Source: an uncultured Bacilli bacterium
GTDB lineage: Bacteria > Bacillota_I > Bacilli_A > RFN20 > CAG-449
Direction of reading: 5' to 3'
Length of the DNA: 36,675 nucleotides
NCBI GenBank assembly: GCA_947632435.1
Contig: CANRPC010000015.1
Span: 1-36,675 of the forward strand
Shown here piece by piece: positions 12,830 to 31,328 of the stretch. Numbering within the stretch: position 1 is the stretch's first letter; every line of letters begins with the position of its first letter. Below the pieces are notes generated by a model that saw nothing but the letters and a program-made list of their open reading frames with translations, had not been told where the DNA came from and searched no databases. Both the position numbers and the translations under genes were made by a program.

Positions 12830-13792
12830 TTATTTATTATTAAACTTTTTTATATATTTATCATATTCGTTATATATTTTTTGACCTAAATATTTAGGAG
12901 AGATGATATTTATTTCACCACAGAAAGAAATAAAATAAAAGAACAATTGCCCGAAAGAACAATAAAATGTATAACAATTTCCATCCATTTTTATAGGAAT
13001 AGGTCTATGTAAATAACGTTGATTAAATAATTTAATTCCTCGCTTGGTAAATTCTATAATGGCTTCGCAAAACCTATTTTCTGCAAACTGTACTCCTTTT
13101 TCAATATTTAATTCTAATATTTCAATTTGATCTTTGCTAAATTTAATAGGTTTATTAATTGGCATAACATTTATAATTTTATAAATATGAATTGCTTCAA
13201 TTTTATCATTGTCATACCCAATTAAATAAGAATATAATTCTTCTTTAGATGTTGTTATTTTATATGGAATAAATTCAAAAATTCTTTTTTCAAGTTCTAG
13301 AGTTAAACATGTTTTATTTTTAATACATTCATTGATAATATCGATATTTTTACGATAAATAATACATTCTCTTTTATATTCAGGTAGTAATAAATAATGA
13401 TTAATTAAGTTTCGAAAATAAGATGATGCTGCTTGATAATTAATACCTGAATTAATATTATTAAAAATAAATTCATTATGATTATTTAGATAAAATGTTA
13501 ATGAGTTATCAAAATAATTTTCTGAAGATATAAATTCAATTTCACAAAGTTCATTTGCTAAATCACATGAAAGATTATAATTATTAATATTATATTTTTG
13601 CGTAATTAAATTTGCTTTTTCTAATGCCTTATTTTTTATATTTTGATAATCTTTATAATAATTTTCAAATAATAGATTCATAAATTTGTTTTTATTTATT
13701 GATCCATCTTTTTTTAAAATTTTGAAAATTTGCATATCGTTTATAATAGAATTAAGACTTTTTTTATCAAGATTTACTTTTATTTTTAACAT
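12830..13792 (-). CDS. WYL-domain regulator, probably RHH-WYL type
   Basis: 320 residues. The N-terminus (1-50) reads like a ribbon-helix-helix DNA-binding unit: a short strand IKVNLD, a helix, then 'NKNKFMNLLFENYYKDY'. The middle contains the WYL fold (FIPYKITTSKEELYSYLIGYD... HIYKIINVMPI), and the last ~60 residues match a WYL C-terminal extension (FYFISFCGEINIISPKYLGQKI). WYL domains bind nucleic acid or nucleotide ligands, and RHH-WYL proteins include WYL1, known as a Cas13d accessory protein. It is transcribed divergently from rtcB, which suggests control of the rtcB operon. AGGAG lies just upstream of the ATG. Confidence 0.75.
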   Translation of the reverse strand: MLKIKVNLDKKSLNSIINDMQIFKILKKDGSINKNKFMNLLFENYYKDYQNIKNKALEKANLITQKYNINNYNLSCDLANELCEIEFISSENYFDNSLTFYLNNHNEFIFNNINSGINYQAASSYFRNLINHYLLLPEYKRECIIYRKNIDIINECIKNKTCLTLELEKRIFEFIPYKITTSKEELYSYLIGYDNDKIEAIHIYKIINVMPINKPIKFSKDQIEILELNIEKGVQFAENRFCEAIIEFTKRGIKLFNQRYLHRPIPIKMDGNCYTFYCSFGQLFFYFISFCGEINIISPKYLGQKIYNEYDKYIKKFNNK

Positions 13793-13803
13793 ATAATCTC
13801 CTA

Positions 13804-13824
13804 TTGTTATAAATTATACAACAA
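13804..13824. promoter_or_regulatory. Imperfect palindrome over the WYL-gene promoter
   Basis: TTGTTATAA followed by ATTATACAACAA forms an imperfect inverted repeat that includes a TATAAT read on the minus strand, about 20 bp upstream of the WYL gene. It could be an autoregulatory operator. The AT bias makes chance palindromes common. Confidence 0.3.
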
Positions 13825-13902
13825 AAAAATTAATAAAAATAAAATATAAATCATTATTTCGGGAATTTTAATAAATTTATATACCACAAAAATATAATTA
13901 AA

Positions 13903-13931
13903 TTGAACATTTTTTTATTTTTTAATATTAA
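13903..13931 (+). promoter_or_regulatory. Candidate sigma-A promoter of the rtcB operon
   Basis: TTGAAC (13903-13908), 17-bp spacer, TATTAA (13926-13931), placing the transcript start about 20 bp before the rtcB ATG and just upstream of its GAGGTG site. Confidence 0.45.
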
Positions 13932-13958
13932 ATACTATATATCTGTGAGGTGAAAGAA

Positions 13959-15173
13959 ATGAAAATATTACAAGGAAAATTTAATAAAGCAAATATTTAT
14001 GCTTCAATTATTGATGAAGAAACAGAAAAACAAATAAAAACTTTGCTTGATCAAGAATTTATCAAAGATTTACATGTTGCTATTATGCCTGATTGTCATG
14101 CGGGAAAAGGTTGTGTAATTGGCACTACAATGACAATTAAAGATAAGATAGTTCCAAATTTGGTAGGTGTCGATATTGGATGTGGAATGCTATGTGTATG
14201 CTTAGGTAAAGAAGAAATTGATCTTAAAAACTTAGATAATTTTATACATGAAAATATTCCTGTAGGAATGAAAGTAAATCAAGTTAAAACTAACTTTAAT
14301 GTACCTTTAACAAAATTAAAATGTTATAACGAATTAAAAAATAGCTCATATTTAGATAAATCTATCGGTTCTTTAGGTGGAGGTAATCATTTTATTGAAA
14401 TTGATGTTTCTAAAAATGGAACTTATTATTTAATTATTCATTCAGGATCTCGTAACTTAGGTAAACAGGTCGCAGAAATATATCAAAATAAAGCAATTAA
14501 ATATCATGAAAATAAAATTTTTAATAAAACTAAAAGAAATAAAATTATCCGTGAATTAAAAGAACAAAATCGTCAAAAAGAAATTCAACAAGTTCTAAAA
14601 GATTTTAAAAATGCAAAAATTAATCTTCCTATACCAGAAGAATTATGTTACCTCGAAGGTGAAGAATTTGAAAACTATATGTCTGATATAAAAATTTGCC
14701 AAGAATTTGCAATGGAAAATCGCAAAGAAATAGCCAAAAGAATTATCAATTATTTAAATAAAAATTTAAATGATTTAGATTCATTTGAAACTATTCATAA
14801 TTATATAAATATGAAAGATAAAATTTTAAGAAAAGGCGCTATTTCTGCATATGAAAATGAAGTTGTTTTAATTCCTATTAATATGAAAGAAGGATGTATT
14901 ATTGCCAAAGGTAAATCTAATCAAGAGTACAATTATTCTGCACCTCATGGAGCGGGAAGAATCATGTCTAGAAGTCAAGCTTTAAAAGAAATTAATATAA
15001 ATGATTTTGTTGATTCTATGAAAGGAATTTATTCTTCAACAATAAGTAAAAAAACTCTTGATGAATCACCTTTTGCTTACAAACCGCTAGAATCTATTAT
15101 AAATAATATTAAAGATACTGTGGACATTATTGAAATTATTAAGCCAATTTATAATTTTAAATCTGAAGAATAA
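13959..15173 (+). CDS. rtcB: RtcB-family RNA ligase
   Basis: ATG at 13959 is preferred: GAGGTG ends 7 bases upstream, and the earlier in-frame GTG at 13950 overlaps that site. 404 residues, the short bacterial RtcB form. RtcB joins 2',3'-cyclic phosphate (or 3'-phosphate) ends to 5'-OH RNA ends using GTP and Mn2+. Catalytic features are intact: MPDCHAGKG, VGVDIGCGM with metal ligands D72 and C75, GGGNHFIE, HSGSRNLG, and SAPHGAGRIMSR with the guanylylated His330. No archease or RtcA gene is nearby. It is divergent from the WYL regulator and followed by two same-strand genes (gaps of 91 and 61 bp), probably an operon. Confidence 0.93.
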   Translation: MKILQGKFNKANIYASIIDEETEKQIKTLLDQEFIKDLHVAIMPDCHAGKGCVIGTTMTIKDKIVPNLVGVDIGCGMLCVCLGKEEIDLKNLDNFIHENIPVGMKVNQVKTNFNVPLTKLKCYNELKNSSYLDKSIGSLGGGNHFIEIDVSKNGTYYLIIHSGSRNLGKQVAEIYQNKAIKYHENKIFNKTKRNKIIRELKEQNRQKEIQQVLKDFKNAKINLPIPEELCYLEGEEFENYMSDIKICQEFAMENRKEIAKRIINYLNKNLNDLDSFETIHNYINMKDKILRKGAISAYENEVVLIPINMKEGCIIAKGKSNQEYNYSAPHGAGRIMSRSQALKEININDFVDSMKGIYSSTISKKTLDESPFAYKPLESIINNIKDTVDIIEIIKPIYNFKSEE

Positions 15174-15221
15174 CATAATTAAAATTAAATAATAATGCTT
15201 TACAAATCTGACAATAATTAT

Positions 15222-15251
15222 AATCTAAATTATAATAATCTAAATTATAAT
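15222..15251 (+). repeat. 15-bp tandem repeat upstream of the ATPase gene
   Basis: AATCTAAATTATAAT occurs twice head to tail (15222-15236 and 15237-15251), preceded by a partial unit (ATTATAAT). Each unit contains TATAAT, so the array may offer stacked -10 elements or an operator. It ends 13 bp before the chosen start of the ATPase gene. Confidence 0.75.
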
Positions 15252-15264
15252 AATGGAGAAAATT

Positions 15265-16638
15265 ATGTTTATTGGTCGTGAAAAAGAATTAAAGCATTTA
15301 AACAAACTATATAGTGACACTGCTTTCCAATTTGTAGTAATGTTTGGAAGAAAAAGAATTGGTAAAACAGAATTACTTAAAGAATTTTCTAAAAATAAGA
15401 ATGCCATTTTTTATTCTGCACTTGAAAAAAAATCAAATCTTGATGAATTTTCTTCTGAAGTTTTTAAACACTTTAATGAAAATAATAATCTTCTTTTTAA
15501 AACTTGGAAAGATGCATTTCAATATATAAGCAATCATACAAAAAAAAGACAAGTTTTAATTATTGATGAATTTCCTTATATTGCTAAAGCAGAGCCAGAA
15601 ATCAAAAGTATTCTTCAACATATAATTGATCATGATTGGAAAAACAAAAATATAATGCTTATTTTATGTGGCAGTTCTGTTTCATTTATGACTAATGGAA
15701 TTATGGGAAGAAAAAGTCCTCTTTATGGAAGAAATACTTCTGTAATGGAAGTACTTCCATTCGATTATTCTATAACTAATAGTTTTTTACCAAAATACTC
15801 TAAAAAAGATAGAATGATAGTATATGGAATACTTGGAGGTGTCCCATATTATTTATCGAAATTTGAAGATACAAAATCATTAGAAAAAAATATTGCTGAC
15901 ATTATAATTGATTCATCATCTTATTTAAGAGAAGAACCAATATCTTTACTTAAATCAGAATTAAGAGAACCTATGACATATAATAGTATTTTAGAAGCAA
16001 TTGCAACAGGTGCAAATAAGCTAAACGAAATAGCGGATAAAACAAAAATCGATGCGACAAAATTACCAATATATATTAAAAATCTTATTGAAATGAGAAT
16101 TGTAGAAAAAATAATTTGTTGCGGTGAGAAAACAAATTCAAAAAAAAGTCAATATATCATAAAAGACAATTTTTTTAGTTTTTGGTATCGCTTTGTTTTT
16201 GCAAAACAAACAAAAATTGAATTAATGGAACCTTTAAATTATGTAAAATCTATTATGAATGAAATCAATGAATATATGGGATTTAAATTTGAAAAAATTT
16301 GTTACCAATTTATGATATCACTTGCTAAAAAAAATGAATTACCATTTATACCATCTTCTTTAGGCAAGTGGTGGGGAAATAATCAAAAGACAAAAAAAGC
16401 CGATGAAATAGATATCTTAGGAATTGAAAATGATAAATATCTTTTTTGCGAATGCAAATTCAAAAATGAAGCTTTTGATTTAAAAGAATTTAAAGATTTA
16501 ATTGAATCCTCAAATAATTTTAAAAATGCAAAAGAAAAATATTTTTATATTTTTATAAAAAGTAGTTTTACAAATGCAGTAATTTCAGAAGCCAAAAACT
16601 ATAATGTAAAATTAATAACAATTGAAACAATGTTATAA
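15265..16638 (+). CDS. Archaeal-type ATPase with C-terminal DUF234 nuclease-like domain
   Basis: The ATG at 15265 is chosen because GGAG lies at 15255-15258 and the product begins MFIGREKEL, the family's standard start; an ATG at 15253 overlaps the ribosome-binding site. 457 residues. The N-terminal STAND/AAA-like ATPase has Walker A GRKRIGKT (28-35), Walker B VLIIDEFP (97-104) and a GSSVSFM sensor segment. A winged-helix region follows (about 225-290), then a PD-(D/E)xK-like domain with EIDILG (E381, D383) and CECKF (E396, K398). Such proteins abound in accessory regions, and their biological role is not established. Placed between rtcB and the WYL-helicase. Confidence 0.82.
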   Translation: MFIGREKELKHLNKLYSDTAFQFVVMFGRKRIGKTELLKEFSKNKNAIFYSALEKKSNLDEFSSEVFKHFNENNNLLFKTWKDAFQYISNHTKKRQVLIIDEFPYIAKAEPEIKSILQHIIDHDWKNKNIMLILCGSSVSFMTNGIMGRKSPLYGRNTSVMEVLPFDYSITNSFLPKYSKKDRMIVYGILGGVPYYLSKFEDTKSLEKNIADIIIDSSSYLREEPISLLKSELREPMTYNSILEAIATGANKLNEIADKTKIDATKLPIYIKNLIEMRIVEKIICCGEKTNSKKSQYIIKDNFFSFWYRFVFAKQTKIELMEPLNYVKSIMNEINEYMGFKFEKICYQFMISLAKKNELPFIPSSLGKWWGNNQKTKKADEIDILGIENDKYLFCECKFKNEAFDLKEFKDLIESSNNFKNAKEKYFYIFIKSSFTNAVISEAKNYNVKLITIETML

Positions 16639-16699
16639 GTAATGATATTATTTTTTTGTAGTAAATGAGAATATTTTAATATTTTTTTAGGAATTTATA

Positions 16700-19600
16700 A
16701 TGGAATGTAAGCAAAAAAAATCAAAAAATAGTTTAATAAGAAATACAATTTTAAGATCCATATATGAAGGTTGTTGGTTAGAAATAACTTATCAAAATGC
16801 AAATGACATAGTAAAAACATTTTGGATATCTATAAAAATGATTTATTTTGATAGCAAAACATTACAATGTTATTCTTTAAGTTTAGATGAAGATAAAAAT
16901 AAAATAAAAACAATATCAATTTATTTAGATAGAATTTTAAGCGCCAAATGCCTTCCTAATACATATATCATGAATTCAGAAGAGTTAGTAAAATATTTAG
17001 ATGAGCATGCCGAATGTACAAAAGAATTATTTCCATCATTTGATTATGAAAATGTTTTATCATATTTAAGTGCTTGTGTAAATGATGATGATTCACCTGT
17101 TAAAATGGAATCCGCGGCAATTGAAGGTATCGATTTAAATGTTTTAGAAGATAACGATTATATTCCTCTTAGTAATAAGCAAATAAAAGAATTAAAGAAA
17201 AACTTTATTTTTAAAAATAATGGAGAACTTGTAAATATTGAACTTGCTGTGAATTTAATTTCTTTTGTCTATACTAATGGAAAACAACTTATTTTAGCTT
17301 ATAAACCAGTAAAATGGGATATTAAAAATCAAAAATTAAAAATTATTAATTCTATTTTATTTTGCAATAAATTTAAAGATGAAGAAGGTATAGAGCATAA
17401 TCTTTTAGAAAAATACATCTATGAAGATGAAAAATATTTATTAGAAGAATATACAAAAAATTACCATATTATTAAAGAATTAATAATGAGTAGAATAAAA
17501 GATCAAAATATTAATTTTAATGATACAAGCAAGTTAATTTTAATAAAAAGGGTTAAAAATATAGACATTGAAACTCAATTTGATGGTATACGTACAATGT
17601 ATGAAGCAAATACAACTACTATTCCAATTAAAGCTTTTTTTGGAGAGGTTAATATCAATAGAAATCGAAAATATTACCCATTTTGTTTTACCAATAATAA
17701 TTTAAATCCATCACAATTAGTTTCTATTTTTTCAGGACTAAAAGACGATTTAAGTTTTATACAAGGTCCACCTGGAACTGGTAAAACACATACTGTCTTA
17801 AATTTAGTGACTACAGCTTTTTTTAATGGTTTAACTTGTTTAGTAACAACAAATAATAATCAACCAATGAAAGATCTTAAATCTAAATTTGAAAATATTG
17901 GGAATTATAAAAACGAACCAATAGAACTCCCTCTTTTAAGATTGTCAGCGAAAGATAAAATGACCGAAACAATTAAAAATATGAATCATCTATATTTAAA
18001 ATATAAAGATGCAAATGTTAACGATAGGATTTTAGAGCAAAATTCAAAATATCAAAAAGAAAATCTTAATCAAATAGTTAAAAAACTTAATGAATTTGAT
18101 GAATTTAAAACACAAAAAATTAGAAGAGAGAATTTTCAAAAATTTGTAGAGGATAATGAATATAAAAATCTTACTTTAGATATTAAATTTCAAACAAAAA
18201 ATAACATTGAAGATTTTGATTTCTCAAGCTTAAACGAATCAATTCAATTAAATGAAGTAGTCAACAAATCATTTTTATATTTTAATTCCGCAAAATATAT
18301 TCAAAAATTAGATAAACCTAAATACCAAAAATTAAAAGACATAATATCAATTGATATTAATGATGAAGATGCATTAAAAAATTCCGTTGAAAAATTTCTA
18401 GCATTTTTAAAAGAAGAAAATGGCATGGAAATGCTTTTAGATGTTTTTCCAATTGTAATATCCACAAATTTATCATCTGCTAAATTGGGATCTCCAAAAC
18501 CTTATTTTGATATATGTATTATTGATGAAGCAGGTCAATGCAATGTTGCAACATCTTTAATTTCAATTATCCGTGCTAAAAAGTTAATTCTTGTAGGGGA
18601 TATTCAACAATTACAACCAGTCATAACTTTAGAAAATTCTAATAATGAATATTATAAAAATTTATATGATGTTGATGATGTTTTTGATTATAAAAATAAT
18701 TCAATTTATTCTACCATGATTTCTAATGCTCCTAGATATAAAGAAACATTATTAAATGAACATTATAGATGTGCTTATGATATTATAAATTTTTGTAATA
18801 AAAAATATTATAAAAAAATGTTAGATATTAAAAATGAAAAAGATAAACAAAATCATTTATTTGTTATTGATGTTTCTTTTGATAATTATGATTTAGGAAA
18901 AAATGTTTCAAGCCAAGAAATATTAAAAATATTAAATCTTTTAGAAAAATTTAAAAATCAAAATAAAAGCATTGGAATTATTACACCTTATGTTGCTCAA
19001 AAAAGATACTTAATGGATAAAATTAAACAAGAGAATTTTAAAAATGTTGAAGTATCAATTGGAACAATACACACATTTCAAGGAAATGAAAAAGATATTA
19101 TTATATTTAGTACAACAATTAATAAAAATACAAAAATTGGAACATATAGATGGCTTAAGAATAATAAACAACTAATCAATGTCGCTGTATCAAGAGCAAA
19201 AGAAGAATTTTATTTATTAACTAATATTAAAAAATTAGAAGAACTCCATTATAAAACTACATATAACGATGAAAAAGAAAAAGATGATATTTATGATTTA
19301 TATAAATACATTGTTGAGAAAGGTGAATATGAAGTTATTGCAAATTCTATTTCATCTCAAGCATTAGATGAAAATAATTTTATAACCTTCTTAGACAAAG
19401 AAAAATTAATCTCCTATAAACTTGCTTTATCAACAATTTTATGCGAAGGATCTAAATTTAAAGAAAAAGTAAATGTTAATACATTAATTAAAGACTATGT
19501 AGGAACAGAATATTTTGATTTTGTTATTTATAATAAAAAAAATATAGAATGCGTATTTCAATTAATTAAAGCAACTAAAAAATATGAACACAATCAAAAA

Positions 19601-19705
19601 ATAGAAGATTTTTGTCAAAAACACAATATAAAATATATACCTATTAAACCATCAGAAACACGTTCTTACTTTGAAATTAAAGAATCACTAAAAGAATTAA
19701 TTTAA
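16700..19705 (+). CDS. UPF1/DNA2-like SF1 helicase with N-terminal WYL-like domain
   Basis: 1001 residues; AGGA precedes the ATG. The helicase core is complete: motif I GPPGTGKT (356-363), motif II DEAGQ (609-613), motif III GDIQQLQP (from 633), NEHYRC, motif V GTIHTFQGNEKD (from 788) and motif VI VAVSRAK (828-834). It belongs to the AAA_11/AAA_12 UPF1-like class, which unwinds RNA or DNA 5' to 3'. Residues about 14-86 look like a WYL domain: 'WLEITYQNANDIVKTFWI', then IYFDSKTLQCYSL and IYLDRILSAKCL. A second strand-rich segment lies at about 180-225. The C-terminal ~110 residues contain 'VIYNKKNIECVFQLIKA', resembling the core of a degraded or divergent endonuclease-like fold. Third gene of the rtcB cluster. 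The WYL call is by pattern only. Confidence 0.85.
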   Translation: MECKQKKSKNSLIRNTILRSIYEGCWLEITYQNANDIVKTFWISIKMIYFDSKTLQCYSLSLDEDKNKIKTISIYLDRILSAKCLPNTYIMNSEELVKYLDEHAECTKELFPSFDYENVLSYLSACVNDDDSPVKMESAAIEGIDLNVLEDNDYIPLSNKQIKELKKNFIFKNNGELVNIELAVNLISFVYTNGKQLILAYKPVKWDIKNQKLKIINSILFCNKFKDEEGIEHNLLEKYIYEDEKYLLEEYTKNYHIIKELIMSRIKDQNINFNDTSKLILIKRVKNIDIETQFDGIRTMYEANTTTIPIKAFFGEVNINRNRKYYPFCFTNNNLNPSQLVSIFSGLKDDLSFIQGPPGTGKTHTVLNLVTTAFFNGLTCLVTTNNNQPMKDLKSKFENIGNYKNEPIELPLLRLSAKDKMTETIKNMNHLYLKYKDANVNDRILEQNSKYQKENLNQIVKKLNEFDEFKTQKIRRENFQKFVEDNEYKNLTLDIKFQTKNNIEDFDFSSLNESIQLNEVVNKSFLYFNSAKYIQKLDKPKYQKLKDIISIDINDEDALKNSVEKFLAFLKEENGMEMLLDVFPIVISTNLSSAKLGSPKPYFDICIIDEAGQCNVATSLISIIRAKKLILVGDIQQLQPVITLENSNNEYYKNLYDVDDVFDYKNNSIYSTMISNAPRYKETLLNEHYRCAYDIINFCNKKYYKKMLDIKNEKDKQNHLFVIDVSFDNYDLGKNVSSQEILKILNLLEKFKNQNKSIGIITPYVAQKRYLMDKIKQENFKNVEVSIGTIHTFQGNEKDIIIFSTTINKNTKIGTYRWLKNNKQLINVAVSRAKEEFYLLTNIKKLEELHYKTTYNDEKEKDDIYDLYKYIVEKGEYEVIANSISSQALDENNFITFLDKEKLISYKLALSTILCEGSKFKEKVNVNTLIKDYVGTEYFDFVIYNKKNIECVFQLIKATKKYEHNQKIEDFCQKHNIKYIPIKPSETRSYFEIKESLKELI

Positions 19706-19723: not shown

Positions 19724-19766
19724 AACTGTCACAAATTTGAAATTATTTTTAATTTGTGACAGTTAT
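19724..19766. repeat. Palindromic 40-bp repeat, copy 1 (also a terminator)
   Basis: Perfect 14-bp inverted repeat (arm AACTGTCACAAATT at 19724-19737, complement at 19751-19764) around a 13-nt AT loop. The 40-bp stretch 19727-19766 matches 21028-21067 at 39 of 40 positions in the same orientation. This copy overlaps the stop codon of the AAA_14 gene and lies 19 bp after the helicase gene, so it may terminate transcription of both convergent genes. Confidence 0.85.
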
Positions 19767-20986
19767 GATAAATTAATATCTACTTTATTTAAAAGCCATT
19801 TTTCTATATTTATATGAGTTATTCCATCTTTTGACATATCGTATTCGTCTAAACTAAATACATACTTTGGTGAAGGATCACGCACTGAATCAAATGCTTT
19901 AAATTCTCTTTCAATAATATCATCATCCATTAACAAATATGCGACTTGAATAAAACATTTTTTACCATCTTTTATAGCAACAAAATCAATTTCACCTTTA
20001 TAAGTTTTGCCTATTTTAACATCATATCCACGATATATTAATTCGTTATATATTATATTTTCTAAAGCATGACCTATAAATATTTTATTAGAATCATTAC
20101 AAGCAAGTAAAAAACCATTATCAACAACAAATTGTTTTTCTATTTGTTTTAAAGTTCTTTTTGTAGCAATATCAAATCTTTTCACTCTAGATATTAAACA
20201 AGCTTGTTCTAATTTTTCTAAATATCTATAAACTATTTTTCTATATATATTATCTTGATTATTTAAATTATAATAATCCACTATATTTTGAACGGAAAAT
20301 TCCTTGGAAATATTATTGATAATGTATTTAGCTATTAAAATAAATGTTTCTTTATCAATTTTAGATTTTTTATCACAAATATCTTTATCAATAATTCCAT
20401 AATATATTGACTTCAAATATTCCTTTATATCTTCTTCTAAGACATAATCCATTCGTTGAGGCATTCCTCCAAATCTTATATAATTTTGAAGTGGATTATT
20501 AGGAAGTTCTAATTTATTTACCTCATAAAATTTAATAAATTCACTATAAGTAAATGGCATTATTTTAAATTCTTTACATCTACCAACAAGTAAACTTGCA
20601 AGTCTACCTGATAAAAGTTTTGAATTGCTACCAGTCACAAAAATAGAGACATTTTGAGTCGCTTTTAAAGATGCTAATACTTTTTCAAATTGATTAACAT
20701 GTTGAATTTCATCTAAAAAAATATAGTATTTTTTATCATCTTTAATTTGCTTTAAAATATAATTATTTAGTTTATTGTAATTATTAATTTTTGAAAACTT
20801 AACATCTTCAAAATTAATAAAAATAATATGATCTTTATTTATCTTTCCTTCAATTTCTAATTCTTCTTTGATTTGATTTAATAAAATACTTTTACCGCAT
20901 CTTCTTATACCAGTTAAAACTTTAATTAAGTTTGATTCATAAAATCTACTTATGTGTTTTAAATATTGATCTCGTTTAATTAACAT
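19763..20986 (-). CDS. AAA_14/DUF4143 ATPase, repeat-flanked
   Basis: 407 residues. N-terminal AAA_14 ATPase with Walker A GIRRCGKS (26-33), Walker B YIFLDEIQHV, a sensor TGSNSKLLSG, and the 'GGMPQRMDYV' segment typical of this class. A winged helix follows and a C-terminal DUF4143 nuclease-like fold with GEIDFVAI and CFIQVAY, where the expected E-x-K is Gln-Val-Ala, so the nuclease-like site is probably inactive. The family has no settled function; it is abundant in accessory DNA of anaerobes. The gene is bracketed by two copies of a 40-bp palindromic repeat. The minus-strand upstream copy overlaps the promoter region. GGTGA precedes the ATG. Confidence 0.85.
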   Translation of the reverse strand: MLIKRDQYLKHISRFYESNLIKVLTGIRRCGKSILLNQIKEELEIEGKINKDHIIFINFEDVKFSKINNYNKLNNYILKQIKDDKKYYIFLDEIQHVNQFEKVLASLKATQNVSIFVTGSNSKLLSGRLASLLVGRCKEFKIMPFTYSEFIKFYEVNKLELPNNPLQNYIRFGGMPQRMDYVLEEDIKEYLKSIYYGIIDKDICDKKSKIDKETFILIAKYIINNISKEFSVQNIVDYYNLNNQDNIYRKIVYRYLEKLEQACLISRVKRFDIATKRTLKQIEKQFVVDNGFLLACNDSNKIFIGHALENIIYNELIYRGYDVKIGKTYKGEIDFVAIKDGKKCFIQVAYLLMDDDIIEREFKAFDSVRDPSPKYVFSLDEYDMSKDGITHINIEKWLLNKVDINLS

Positions 20987-21517: not shown

Positions 21518-22861
21518 TTAGTACTCTTGTATTAAAAAAGTAAGATAGTGAGGAATGTATAGAACATTACCGATTAAAGCAATATTACCTTCTCTAATCT
21601 TAATTGCCCTATCAACGTGATAATGGTCATAATTTTCAAGAATAGTAGTAAGTGCTTTAGCTTTACTGTTATTTGCTTTTACTTCAATCAAAGTACATTT
21701 ACCTTTAAAACGTGTAACAAAATCAATTTCAAGGCCACTATCTTTATGATAATAATAAAGTTTTCTATTCATTTTAGAAAAGGCATCGGCAATGATATTT
21801 TCATATATTGCACCTTTATAAATCGATAGATTACCATTTAAGATATCTGCATATGTTCCTTCTTCAAGCATTGCAACAAATAAACCACTATCTTGCATAT
21901 AAACTTTAAAAACATCATCTTTTTTATTACCTTCTAAAGGTAATTCAGTAATTGATAAAGCATAGCAACGACTGATAATGCCTGCATCTTCAAGCCATTC
22001 TAAAGCTCGTTTAAAATCATCATTTTTTCCATTCCCTTTTATTTTTGAAAATTGAAATTTTTTATTTTCTTTTGCTAATTGACTTGGGATAGAATTAAAC
22101 ACAGCAAGAATAGTTGCAAGTTCCTTCTTATCTACATACAAAGAGTTATCCTGTTTTAAATGTCTACCAAAATCATCTTGATAAGATTCTAAAATATTAC
22201 GTTGCAATTTTAAAACTTTATTTAAGTCACCATTTTCAATAAATGCCGCGACTACTTCTGGCATACCACCAACACAAATATATTTACGAAATAAATCTGA
22301 GATTCTTAAATGTATCGCTGGTAAAATTTCTTTGCATTCTATAAAACAATTTTTTAATTCATCAATTGTTTTTGATGAAATGCCATTAGCCCACATGAAT
22401 TCTTCAAAATCCAAAGGTTTCATATAAATTACATCTTCATATCCAACAGGAATTGCATTATCACTTCTTTGACTATAACCTTTTATGCCAAGTAAGGAAC
22501 CAGTGCAAATAATATCATATCTACCATCTTCATAAAAATATTTTAAGGAGGATCTTGCATTAGGGCAATCTTGTACTTCATCAAAAATAAGAAGCGTTTT
22601 GTACGGAATCGCATTAACATTTAAAATATTGGCAGTTATTTGACTAATTAAATCATTAATAATAAAAGAATGATCAAAAATAGCTCGTAATTCATGATTT
22701 TTACGAAAATCAAGGTAAATTACATTTTCATAGTTCTCTTTAGCAAATTGTTTAACAATATAAGTTTTACCAACTTGCCTTAAACCTTTAATTACTAAAG
22801 GTTTTTTATTTTTACTCTGTTTCCATTTTAAAAGTTCACTATATATTTTCCTTTTTAACAT
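21518..22861 (-). CDS. AAA_14/DUF4143 ATPase with intact nuclease-like motif
   Basis: 447 residues. Walker A GLRQVGKT (about 25-32), Walker B LLIFDEVQDC, sensor TGSLLG, and the 'PLDFEEFMWANG' and 'VGGMPEVV' motifs of the DUF4143 class. The C-terminal PD-(D/E)xK-like fold is complete here: GLEIDFVTR followed by LIEVKANN (Asp ... E-x-K), unlike the neighbouring paralogue. AAAGGAG precedes the ATG, with a TATAAT (minus strand) about 30 bp upstream. Two operator-like palindromes lie further upstream. Similarity to the other ATPase is limited to fold-level motifs, so this is not a recent duplication. Confidence 0.88.
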   Translation of the reverse strand: MLKRKIYSELLKWKQSKNKKPLVIKGLRQVGKTYIVKQFAKENYENVIYLDFRKNHELRAIFDHSFIINDLISQITANILNVNAIPYKTLLIFDEVQDCPNARSSLKYFYEDGRYDIICTGSLLGIKGYSQRSDNAIPVGYEDVIYMKPLDFEEFMWANGISSKTIDELKNCFIECKEILPAIHLRISDLFRKYICVGGMPEVVAAFIENGDLNKVLKLQRNILESYQDDFGRHLKQDNSLYVDKKELATILAVFNSIPSQLAKENKKFQFSKIKGNGKNDDFKRALEWLEDAGIISRCYALSITELPLEGNKKDDVFKVYMQDSGLFVAMLEEGTYADILNGNLSIYKGAIYENIIADAFSKMNRKLYYYHKDSGLEIDFVTRFKGKCTLIEVKANNSKAKALTTILENYDHYHVDRAIKIREGNIALIGNVLYIPHYLTFLIQEY

Positions 22862-27461: not shown

Positions 27462-30400
27462 TTATTTATCATCTCTAACAAGCATTGGCTCTTTAACTTT
27501 TATTTCTTCAGGAATGTAAATGGTTAAAATATTTTCATGTAAAGTTAATTTATTTTCATGCACCATTTTAATAATAATATTACGCATATCTTCATAAAGT
27601 TTAGCGTTCATCGTTTTATAACCTAATGAAATAAGCATCAATTTAATCGTGGTATCCATTTCAATGCTTTCACAAGTTTTAATAATAGTTAAAATGCCTT
27701 CTTCAATTTCATCTTTAGCAACTGAAGAAATACTTCTTACGTAATTTTTATTTTTCGCAGATTTAAATACAACTGGTTGATTCTTTAAATAAATAAATTT
27801 ATCTTTAATAAAAATTTTATCTTCTTTTAATAAAACATTTATAAAATTTAAGCCATCTGTTTTAAAAATACCAATCATAACACTTTCTTGAACTGGGAAA
27901 CATGTTTCCAAAACTTTTATAAATAACTTTTCCCTATTAAATTCAAAGGCTGCTTTGTTTTTATAATATACCTCATGTGGATCAACATATTCTAAGAAAA
28001 GAATATCACTAATTTTATGTTTAACAACTTTCTTTTTAGCTTTAACAATATTGGAATTTTCTTGAATTTTTGTAATTAATTTATCTTTTTCCATTTCTTC
28101 ATTTAAAAAGAAAATAAATGGGAATATACGAATATAAGGATATTCACCCTCTAATAATTTGTCTTCAAGCATTATGCTTTCTTGAGTACTTTCTAAAGAA
28201 TAATATGGTAATCTATCAATTAAAATAGCCGTAGAGGTACTTTTATTTTCAACTTTAACAACAAAATCTAAATAACCATTTTTGAATGGAACATTTCTTG
28301 TAACTTTAAAACCCGATCTTTCAAGAAAATTTTGTAAATAATTCATAAAATAAGGATTAAAATGATTTAATTGTAAAGTTTTAATATCATATGTTCGTGA
28401 ATTAAAATCAATCGTTTCATAACTATTTTTCATAGCTGCTAAAAAGGTTTCTGTATCCGATTTATCTATACCATCACCAGCAAAATCATTATTAAAATAA
28501 TCTTCATCAAAAGCAATAATTTGATCTCCACGATATAATGCTGAAAGCATTTCTGAAGTTTTTATTTCTTTATTTGCTAAACATATTACTAGATCAAAAT
28601 GATAATTTTCACTATGTAATAATTTAGAAACTGTTTTTAAAGGAGTAAATATACAACCAATTGTATGAAATATTGATTCATGTGCAAGATAAGTAATACG
28701 TGAAAGTGGGCGAATAATATCTTGCTTTTTTTCATTTTCCACAAAATCATATTCATAACGTTTTAAAATTGCTAAGTTATTACGGAGATAATCTAGTTGA
28801 TAAGTTCTTAATAACGAATCCACAATATTTTCACGATTTTGTTCGCAAATATTATAAATATCTAAACTCTTATAAAAATCTTCTTGTTTATAATTTTTCA
28901 ATTTTGCTTTATTTAATAAATAATTTGCATAATCATAGTAAAAACGTTTATAAAACATCGGTTCATAAAGAGTAAAATTATCTTCATTTAAAAAGGAATC
29001 TGCAAGTCCATGAAACGATGCATTAAGATGAAAACGAGCAACATAAAACTCTAAATAATCATTTATAGAAACAAAATCATTAGTCATAAGACTGACTTTT
29101 TCAAAGATATCATCAAAATTATAAGAAGAAAAATCAAAAATGTTTTTATCAAAATAATCTTGTAAAATAGCTAATTCACTATAAATATGATTAAAAGTTT
29201 TTTGAACTTTTGATTTTAAATTCTCCATTGATTTTTTCTTATTTTCATCTTGAAATTGATCAAGAATACTATAAGAAAATGTTAAATTTTTTGCATTTAA
29301 ATATTTAATAGAATTTTTTAAAAGATTAACTTTTTCTTCTAAATTCTTAATAGTATTTATATCATAATGATTACCTAAAAAGAATTTTTGAAAAACATCA
29401 TTAACATTATTTTTAGCTTGCTCTACTTGATTTTGTAATTCTTCATAATATTTTAATTGCCCATTAACTTTAAAAATAAGATCCAAATTAATCGTTAAAT
29501 TTGCTTTAAAATAATTTTTATACGTTTTAATTTCTTTTTTTGAAAGATTCTTTTTATTATTTATTCTATTTAATAAATCTTTATTTAAAAGAAATACCTT
29601 TTCACCATATTCATCAATAATGCTTTTTTTAGTAAGCTCTAAATCTTGATAAAGTTTTTCCACAATAAGCATCTTATTTTTTTCTTTATCAAAAACAACA
29701 TTTGCTTTAAATAAAGAACTATTTGCTAAATAATCATCAAGAACAGAAAGAATATTTAAAATACCTTTTAATTCTTTCATATTTTTAGCAACTGGGAAAT
29801 TGTAATTATTTTCTAATTTATTAAAATTTGTTTTTTGAAAACTTAAATCTTTAGTCAATTTTTCCGCGGCATCTTTTAATGGCAAATAGTCTTCTTGCAT
29901 CATATTATTTTTGTTAAAGCCATAAAAAGCATGTTTTGTATAAGGTACTTTTAGTTTTTGTAAACTCGTTACAAAGTCAGATATCTGAGTTTCCACAAAT
30001 TCAAAAGTTTCTACATCAAAAGTATCTATTTTTGTAATTTCTCTATCTAATAAAGGACAATCTATACGATAATAATGTTCAATACATTCATTTAAAGACA
30101 AATCAAATTGTTCATTTTTCTTACGAAGTTCATTAATTAATTTTTTAAAACTATTTTTTGTTTCATAATACTTATCCAAAACTTCTTGAGTTGCTACAGG
30201 ATCAAAATAATTTTTGATATAAGTTGTACTTTCATATTGATTTAAATGACTTAATAAATTTAATTTATTCGCACTTAATTCATTTAAATCAAAAGAATAA
30301 GACTTTAATGAAGCATCTAAATTTTGAAATAATTGATTTTTTTGCTCTTGATTTTCATATACAACAAGAACTTTTTTATTGTTTAATAAAAAACTTAAAA

Positions 30401-31328
30401 GAATATTATTTAAAAGATGACTTTTATTTTTAAAATTATTGGTGCGTATAAAAAATGATTCTCTATCTGCGATTCTTTTTAAAATTCGATATTCTTCATT
30501 ATCTACTGGTAATAAAGATAGAACCTTTTTTTCTAATTTGTTTTTATCTTTTTTTAAAAAATGATAAAATTCCGCATTAAAATATGAAATAGATTTAATT
30601 ATTGGCAAATTGGCAATAACGTTTTGATGTTCGATAACATCTTCTAAATAATATTGCATATTAATATCAAATTTAGAAATAAAGCACCCATTATTAACTG
30701 AAAAATGGAACATGTGTACTTTACTTGCAACATATAAAAGATATTCTTCAAGAGAAAAATTGTGATCTAAAGTATAAGAAATATCAACTTTTTTAGATTG
30801 TCTAATATAGTTTATCAACTGTTCATTTAACTGCACTTCTTGATTAAAAATTTTGATTTGATAAAAATTATCTTCTTCATTATAAAGAATATTTAAAGGC
30901 AAAAATACAAGAGGAGCAGAAGCAATTGTATGTTTATTATCAACATCATAGTAATCTAATAAACCAAAACTAATATAAAATAAACTCGTTGAATGCTTTT
31001 TTAAATATTCTTCATTTTCTTCTTTAAAACGTTTTAACCGCTTATTTTGTTCATCTTGTTTTAAATTTGTAAAAATAACTTTATTATTATAAAGTTCGCT
31101 ATTGCTTTGTTGCTCTTCTAAAACATGATAAAAATTATTATCGTCAAAATCTAAATTAGCAATTCTTATTGTTTTATTTTTTATTAAACAATCAAAAATT
31201 TCTAAATAGTTATCATTTACAATGCGAATAACATCTTTTGCATTATGGTCAAATTTAAAAGTATTACTACTATTCAATGCTTTTATTAAATCATCTATCC
31301 ATAATTCTACTTTAAACCGATTTTCCAT
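27462..31328 (-). CDS. Giant DUF4011-type helicase relative with destroyed ATPase motifs
   Basis: 1288 residues. Domain order follows DUF4011 / SF1 helicase / MTES_1575 (Vsr-like) / DUF3320 proteins. DUF4011-like region: LFYISFGLLDYYD and APLVFLPLNILYN (about 110-145). P-loop position: FFIRTNNFKNKSHLL (about 291-305) followed by NKKVLVVYENQEQ, in place of GPPGTGKSQT then kkVLfVseK. Next a long coiled-coil insert (about 385-800). GCIFTPLKTVSKLL and FDLVICLANKEI (911-922) stand where FDlVIFDEASQi belongs. The second RecA domain is largely missing. Near residue 1021, YLDFVVKV and AILIDRLPYY match a Vsr-like domain lacking its acidic residues. The C-terminus resembles DUF3320. ATP hydrolysis and cleavage look impossible, yet the frame is intact: a maintained scaffold-like protein. 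Lies 50 bp downstream of degV. Confidence 0.7.
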   Translation of the reverse strand: MENRFKVELWIDDLIKALNSSNTFKFDHNAKDVIRIVNDNYLEIFDCLIKNKTIRIANLDFDDNNFYHVLEEQQSNSELYNNKVIFTNLKQDEQNKRLKRFKEENEEYLKKHSTSLFYISFGLLDYYDVDNKHTIASAPLVFLPLNILYNEEDNFYQIKIFNQEVQLNEQLINYIRQSKKVDISYTLDHNFSLEEYLLYVASKVHMFHFSVNNGCFISKFDINMQYYLEDVIEHQNVIANLPIIKSISYFNAEFYHFLKKDKNKLEKKVLSLLPVDNEEYRILKRIADRESFFIRTNNFKNKSHLLNNILLSFLLNNKKVLVVYENQEQKNQLFQNLDASLKSYSFDLNELSANKLNLLSHLNQYESTTYIKNYFDPVATQEVLDKYYETKNSFKKLINELRKKNEQFDLSLNECIEHYYRIDCPLLDREITKIDTFDVETFEFVETQISDFVTSLQKLKVPYTKHAFYGFNKNNMMQEDYLPLKDAAEKLTKDLSFQKTNFNKLENNYNFPVAKNMKELKGILNILSVLDDYLANSSLFKANVVFDKEKNKMLIVEKLYQDLELTKKSIIDEYGEKVFLLNKDLLNRINNKKNLSKKEIKTYKNYFKANLTINLDLIFKVNGQLKYYEELQNQVEQAKNNVNDVFQKFFLGNHYDINTIKNLEEKVNLLKNSIKYLNAKNLTFSYSILDQFQDENKKKSMENLKSKVQKTFNHIYSELAILQDYFDKNIFDFSSYNFDDIFEKVSLMTNDFVSINDYLEFYVARFHLNASFHGLADSFLNEDNFTLYEPMFYKRFYYDYANYLLNKAKLKNYKQEDFYKSLDIYNICEQNRENIVDSLLRTYQLDYLRNNLAILKRYEYDFVENEKKQDIIRPLSRITYLAHESIFHTIGCIFTPLKTVSKLLHSENYHFDLVICLANKEIKTSEMLSALYRGDQIIAFDEDYFNNDFAGDGIDKSDTETFLAAMKNSYETIDFNSRTYDIKTLQLNHFNPYFMNYLQNFLERSGFKVTRNVPFKNGYLDFVVKVENKSTSTAILIDRLPYYSLESTQESIMLEDKLLEGEYPYIRIFPFIFFLNEEMEKDKLITKIQENSNIVKAKKKVVKHKISDILFLEYVDPHEVYYKNKAAFEFNREKLFIKVLETCFPVQESVMIGIFKTDGLNFINVLLKEDKIFIKDKFIYLKNQPVVFKSAKNKNYVRSISSVAKDEIEEGILTIIKTCESIEMDTTIKLMLISLGYKTMNAKLYEDMRNIIIKMVHENKLTLHENILTIYIPEEIKVKEPMLVRDDK

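Follow-up and report, generated by a model that had tools for sequence, protein, structure and literature searches.

The stretch of DNA analysed here, hereafter the window, comprises 36,675 nucleotides of an uncultured Bacilli bacterium (assembly GCA_947632435.1, contig CANRPC010000015.1), and our interest lies in two divergent genes within it, one for a WYL1-family regulator and the other for the RNA ligase RtcB (Table 1). We consider it probable that this pair is the functional unit of the region, with an autoregulated regulator that would sense broken RNA and thereby release RtcB. The steps backed by sequence comparison are the recurrence of the pair, the retention of the RtcB active site, and operator-like repeats ahead of the regulator genes of relatives. 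An initial annotation had proposed a larger module of four genes, also including an ATPase and a helicase that follow rtcB. All four open reading frames (ORFs) lie where it placed them, and its grouping of the WYL regulator with RtcB is borne out across genomes, while the other two genes are better regarded as neighbours, as set out below.

Recurrence of the Regulator–rtcB Pair

Gene neighbourhoods were surveyed in 279 genomes of the order, with a wider sample of 346 genomes of the class. An intact rtcB of the window subfamily is present in ten of the 279 genomes, and beside seven of these, in three families, there is a homologue of the regulator, either as the direct neighbour or across one gene (G000, G003, G006, G014, G041, G052 and G077). 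The two genes are divergent in every paired locus. Since only 42 of the 279 genomes, each with more than 1000 genes, have any member of the regulator family, adjacency by chance would be very unlikely. In a tree of 48 members the rtcB-paired regulators are spread over several branches, meaning that the pairing either arose anew several times or is ancient with frequent losses, and we read either one as a sign of function.

The regulator has other partners as well. In G041 and G052 a DUF2828 gene stands between regulator and rtcB, on the strand of rtcB and overlapping it by a few bases, and in G056, G165 and G098 the regulator faces a DUF2828 gene without rtcB. In six loci (L108, L109, L110, L113, L114 and L115) it faces a conserved protein of 705–735 amino acids that belongs to no Pfam family and had no match when compared by sequence with the PDB; some of its sequence motifs look TerD-like, a resemblance with no Pfam support.

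The Regulator and RtcB

The regulator had no match to Pfam in the family search, but it matches the PADLOC WYL model (E value 5.8e-8), and a profile built from 30 relatives found one strong match in the PDB, 6oaw (RspWYL1), over positions 7–329 (E 2e-27). The annotation as a WYL-type regulator is thus sound, and the likening to the WYL1 of Cas13d is correct at the family level and over the whole length. In RspWYL1, which assists type VI-D CRISPR-Cas as an accessory protein, a single chain carries a pair of RHH motifs, a WYL barrel and a C-terminal domain for dimerisation, and the protein binds single-stranded RNA (PMC6547453). The predicted layout here is the same, with RHH1 at residues ~1–50, a helical insert, RHH2 at ~95–140, the WYL domain at ~147–240 and the C-terminal domain at ~245–320, and the alignment places this tandem arrangement in the relatives too. 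A single-sequence AlphaFold2 model of the window protein had a mean predicted local distance difference test (pLDDT) score of 35. Unlike RspWYL1, the regulator has RtcB as its partner, and no cas gene turned up among the window proteins scanned. The WYL transcription factors CapW and PafBC likewise join a WYL and a C-terminal domain to an N-terminal DNA-binding part, which is a winged helix in those proteins and a tandem RHH here.

A second WYL1-family gene, a paralogue of the regulator, is present in the window's own genome (contig 33; L103 3151–4119). More distant members of the family, from the class-wide sample (L236, L239, L240 and L242), lie beside genes named by eye as TIR-, SIR2-, ClpP-like or large UPF1-like helicase genes, and these neighbours suggest a wider role in conflict. 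No homologues of the regulator were found in viral contigs.

RtcB joins RNA ends bearing a 2′,3′-cyclic phosphate or a 3′-phosphate to 5′-OH ends. The window protein matches PF01139 (E 1e-61), and D75, C78, N146, H147, H164, H283 and H333, the catalytic residues for metal binding and guanylylation, are all present, as had been claimed, and invariant among the aligned relatives. Translation probably begins at ATG 13959 rather than at GTG 13950, and GAGGTG lies ahead of this start at 13947–13952. Neither RtcA (RTC family) nor Archease gave a family match in eight genomes with this rtcB subfamily, while control genomes were positive.

Candidate Operators of the Regulator Family

In the main clade of regulators, 15 of 21 loci have the motif GACC(A/C)C upstream of the regulator gene and in its orientation, with 22 sites in all. 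Shuffled sequences gave a mean of 0.85 sites and a maximum of 5, control genes had 1 in 181, and the reverse orientation had none. The cores are mostly bordered by runs of T and A, often form direct repeats, and lie ~10 to 30 bp before the regulator start, often with another at ~50 to 85 bp. The paralogue in the window's genome has TTTTTGTTCATA twice, as direct repeats. The regulator of the window comes from a branch other than the main clade, and its repeats, TTTTTGT(T/G)GTATA in the regulator orientation at 13827–13815 and 13892–13880, 65 bp apart, are a diverged and weaker form. As judged from these sequences, the repeats support DNA binding and autoregulation by the regulator family; the direction in which rtcB would be controlled is one that we infer.

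Ro60-Like Proteins and Their Candidate RNAs

DUF2828/DUF7788 proteins are encoded both in cellular genomes (for example, L044 7317–8789) and in phages (for example, L246 4977–6524). When compared with the PDB by sequence, DUF2828 had no match. Its kinship was resolved at the level of fold instead: a structural model of a phage protein, built from an alignment of 35 phage homologues, reached a pLDDT of 88, and its top 11 fold matches in the PDB were all TROVE/Ro60 proteins (best E 3e-8), with the TROVE plus vWA fold. The phage DUF2828 protein thus models as Ro60/TROVE. In two phage contigs, L158 and L303, RtcB and DUF2828 genes are at most 3 kb apart on the same strand, an independent hint of joint function.

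Each of the five cellular DUF2828 genes that are paired with the regulator has, in its leader, hairpins in which ACAGCAA or a near variant of it lies immediately within a stem (Table 1). The weakest case, L107, was missed by a pattern scan and found by a covariance model. Large phage contigs (L246–L325) have the same elements, often in tandem, ahead of their DUF2828 genes. In phage DUF2828 loci the pattern scan gave 91 matches in 49 of 80 loci, 90 of them on the DUF2828 strand, as against 3 matches in 80 RtcB loci and 4–14 for permuted motifs. At 203 intergenic ACAGCAA sites, taken with no choice based on structure, a 7-bp stem is present at 63%, compared with 6% after shuffling. The covariance model found 111 copies over the 57 DUF2828 loci searched, all on the strand of the gene, and none in 80 RtcB loci. 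When the model was run on the 279 genomes, the match in seven of its eight top-scoring genomes lay directly ahead of a gene or gene fragment for DUF2828 that a separate search had located, and three of those seven (G014, G029 and G034) were outside the data used for building the model and the protein profile. The stem pairs covary, a result to be read cautiously since the seed units were chosen for pairing.

Anticodon-like arms are enriched in the loops of these elements (28% versus 3%) and a T-arm occurs in 4 of 98, and for this reason they resemble reduced tRNAs. The Rfam models of Y RNA and YrlA had no match at the gathering score in the five cellular leaders; the YrlA model had weak matches in L261, outside the ACAGCAA elements, and none in L044. 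A known Rfam family was rejected, as none fits. The elements are apparently an undescribed tRNA-like RNA, with a 7-bp stem, ACAGCAA and an anticodon-like arm, and they are candidate Y-like RNAs for the Ro60-like protein. No ACAGCAA RNA was found in the window or in the window's genome.

Mechanism and Alternatives

In the proposed mechanism, the tandem RHH domain would bind the repeats and repress both the regulator gene and rtcB. The WYL and C-terminal part would sense RNA breakage, the signal being tRNA fragments or single-stranded RNA that may carry 2′,3′-cyclic phosphate ends; repression would then be lifted and RtcB would reseal the RNA. A repressor of RHH-WYL type released by RNA breakage is favoured because the closest tested circuits are those of RtcR and TrcR, and by analogy the WYL1-family regulator may fill the role that RtcR has for rtcBA, or TrcR for rtcB, though as a member of a different regulator family. 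RtcR senses tRNA fragments with a cyclic phosphate (PMC7790460), and in the RtcR-rtcBA system, too, RtcB is controlled by a regulator of its own, one with a predicted domain for ligand sensing. RtcR is a sigma-54 activator of CARF-AAA+ type, unlike the RHH-WYL regulator here, and the loci also differ from the rtcBA operon in the lack of RtcA and archease matches noted above. In those relatives in which rtcB is preceded by a Ro60-like gene and tRNA-like RNAs, the order echoes that of rsr-yrlBA, although the protein is of the DUF2828 family and the RNAs differ from YrlA. In Anabaena, TrcR is an autoregulated RHH-type repressor of rtcB and of the trn operon, like the regulator proposed here in its control of rtcB, and rtcB is up 77-fold in a trcR mutant (PMC10272220). 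TrcR differs in acting at many sites, and the text consulted mentions no WYL sensor domain for it.

Several observations weigh against the proposed circuit. Three intact rtcB loci have no regulator beside them, the closest relative of the window regulator (L237, 45% identical) has no adjacent rtcB, and outside the order, in the 346 genomes sampled from the class, no regulator was found beside rtcB. The 23-nt repeat pair in the window, with 19 of 23 positions identical, was equalled in 12 of 400 shuffles and is marginal. Lastly, the residues with which RspWYL1 binds single-stranded RNA (R131, R133, K273, K285, K290, K310 and K332) are S, T, F, I, a gap, I and I in the window regulator, and these positions are mostly unconserved across the family.

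This last point bears also on the main rival, in which the WYL1-like protein is less a transcription factor than a cofactor that binds broken RNA and hands it to RtcB, a role like the one proposed for WYL1 with Cas13d. The full-length kinship with RspWYL1, which binds single-stranded RNA and boosts Cas13d, speaks for such a role, as do the recurring partners, RtcB and the Ro60-like protein, both of which handle RNA. The replaced RNA-binding residues speak against it, the oriented operator-like sites favour DNA binding, and the regulator and rtcB are divergent and so not cotranscribed; we regard a cofactor of this kind as unlikely. A still less likely reading takes the window for a chance neighbourhood of four independent accessory genes in a defence island. 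The region does end at a tRNA, as initially annotated, in this case a tRNA-Ala, with gene content beyond it that varies between relatives, and an AAA_14 gene nearby is a member of a candidate defence family. For the window alone such an origin is possible, but for the regulator–rtcB pair it is contradicted within the order by the pairing in seven of ten rtcB loci, always divergent.

Neighbouring Genes in the Window

The proposal of a four-gene damage- or infection-responsive RNA processing system, in favour of which stands the closeness of rtcB, ATPase and helicase (gaps of 79 and 61 bp on the + strand, with no terminator found between them), is very improbable and was rejected on the comparison of neighbourhoods: the ten helicase loci all have different neighbours, none with rtcB or a WYL gene, an outcome that the initial annotation had itself named as refuting, and the ten helicase loci and the seven rtcB loci have none of the other proposed genes in common save one distant, convergent ATPase in L030 (25% identity). 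The ATPase and the helicase do not recur in the vicinity of rtcB, and the supposed operon of three genes is not kept whole in any homologous locus. The ATPase ORF is preceded, at a distance of 17 bp, by a promoter-like site matching at 11 of 12 positions (chance 0.0085 in that gap), so that, by its sequence, the ATPase probably has its own promoter. This separate site and the absence of conserved linkage are why we treat the ATPase and the helicase as neighbours in an accessory island, and not parts, although readthrough into them is possible, as no terminator was found.

The ATPase matches PADLOC PDC-S27 (ATPase_2-DUF234; E 1.1e-66, residues 5–435) and probably starts at ATG 15265, giving 457 amino acids. 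The PD-(D/E)xK-like motif attributed to it is present as D...ECK; the STAND label was replaced by ATPase_2-DUF234, the STAND models scoring far below their cut-off. The helicase is UPF1-like and of SF1, as annotated, with AAA_11 and AAA_12 domains, while its WYL part is suggestive only (hhalign probability 66%, E 5e-5). Eight of 11 members of its family have a C-terminal DUF2726 nuclease domain of PD-(D/E)xK type, the FE.DG.EH motif of which is lost in the degenerate window copy, a further point against the four-gene system. Ten near-full-length homologues were found in 58 relatives (~26–34% identity), and a single distant match in collections of named genomes and viruses. Membership in the Mokosh defence systems, which combine a UPF1-like helicase with PLD nuclease or kinase domains by fusion or pairing, was rejected, as MkoC and MkoA match the helicase part only, and Pfam found no PLD or kinase domain in the window proteins scanned.

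Two AAA_14-DUF4143 ATPases (19763–20986 and 21518–22861) adjoin the tRNA-Ala, the product of the former matching the candidate defence family PDC-S01 (E 2e-128). Past the tRNA boundary, 27462–31328 encodes a 1288-amino-acid DUF4011 protein with a weak match to the MTES_1575 nuclease.

Table 1. Features of the window and ACAGCAA elements of related loci.
Feature	Position	Strand	Basis or remark
WYL1-family regulator, 320 aa	12830–13792	-	ORF list, PADLOC WYL match, family profile
Candidate operator, two direct repeats between the divergent starts	13815–13902	-	Repeat search and the clearer repeats of relatives in similar positions
rtcB, 3′-5′ RNA ligase, 404 aa from ATG 13959	13959–15173	+	PF01139, catalytic residues intact
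Sigma-70-like promoter, CTGACA-17-TATAAT, before ATPase gene	15208–15236	+	11/12 matches, chance 0.0085
ATPase_2-DUF234 ATPase, PD-(D/E)xK-like D...ECK motif	15253–16638	+	Judged a neighbour, not part of the unit
UPF1-like SF1 helicase, weak N-terminal WYL-like domain, degenerate C-terminal DUF2726 nuclease	16700–19705	+	Judged a neighbour
ACAGCAA element, cellular	L044 7194–7321
ACAGCAA element, cellular	L045 7851–7962
ACAGCAA element, cellular	L104 7022–7141
ACAGCAA element, cellular	L106 5542–5669
ACAGCAA element, cellular	L107 6980–7033

Implications for RNA Repair and the WYL1 Family

Since RtcB and a Ro60-like protein are the partners that recur, RNA-damage repair is better supported than phage defence. 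More tentatively, and with rather less than even confidence, we propose that the WYL1 family consists in origin of autoregulated RNA-damage sensors governing repair of RtcB/Ro60 type, and that its DUF2828 branch uses undescribed tRNA-like RNAs, built of an acceptor-like stem of 7 bp, ACAGCAA where the D arm would be and an anticodon-like hairpin; large phages would have these RNAs too, and they would form a new class of Y-like RNA. In the literature consulted, which did not extend to a 2016 survey of RNA repair (doi 10.1093/nar/gkw722), no paper treats WYL and RtcB, or WYL and Ro60, as one system, and DUF2828 appears in plant papers only. If borne out, the regulator–rtcB circuit would explain how RNA repair is turned on in bacteria without RtcR, would root the CRISPR helper WYL1 evolutionarily in the sensing of RNA damage, and would link WYL regulators to RtcB and to Ro60-like proteins in a circuit open to testing, with the RNA elements beside DUF2828 genes offering an experimental handle on the RNA ligands of bacterial and phage Ro60-like proteins.

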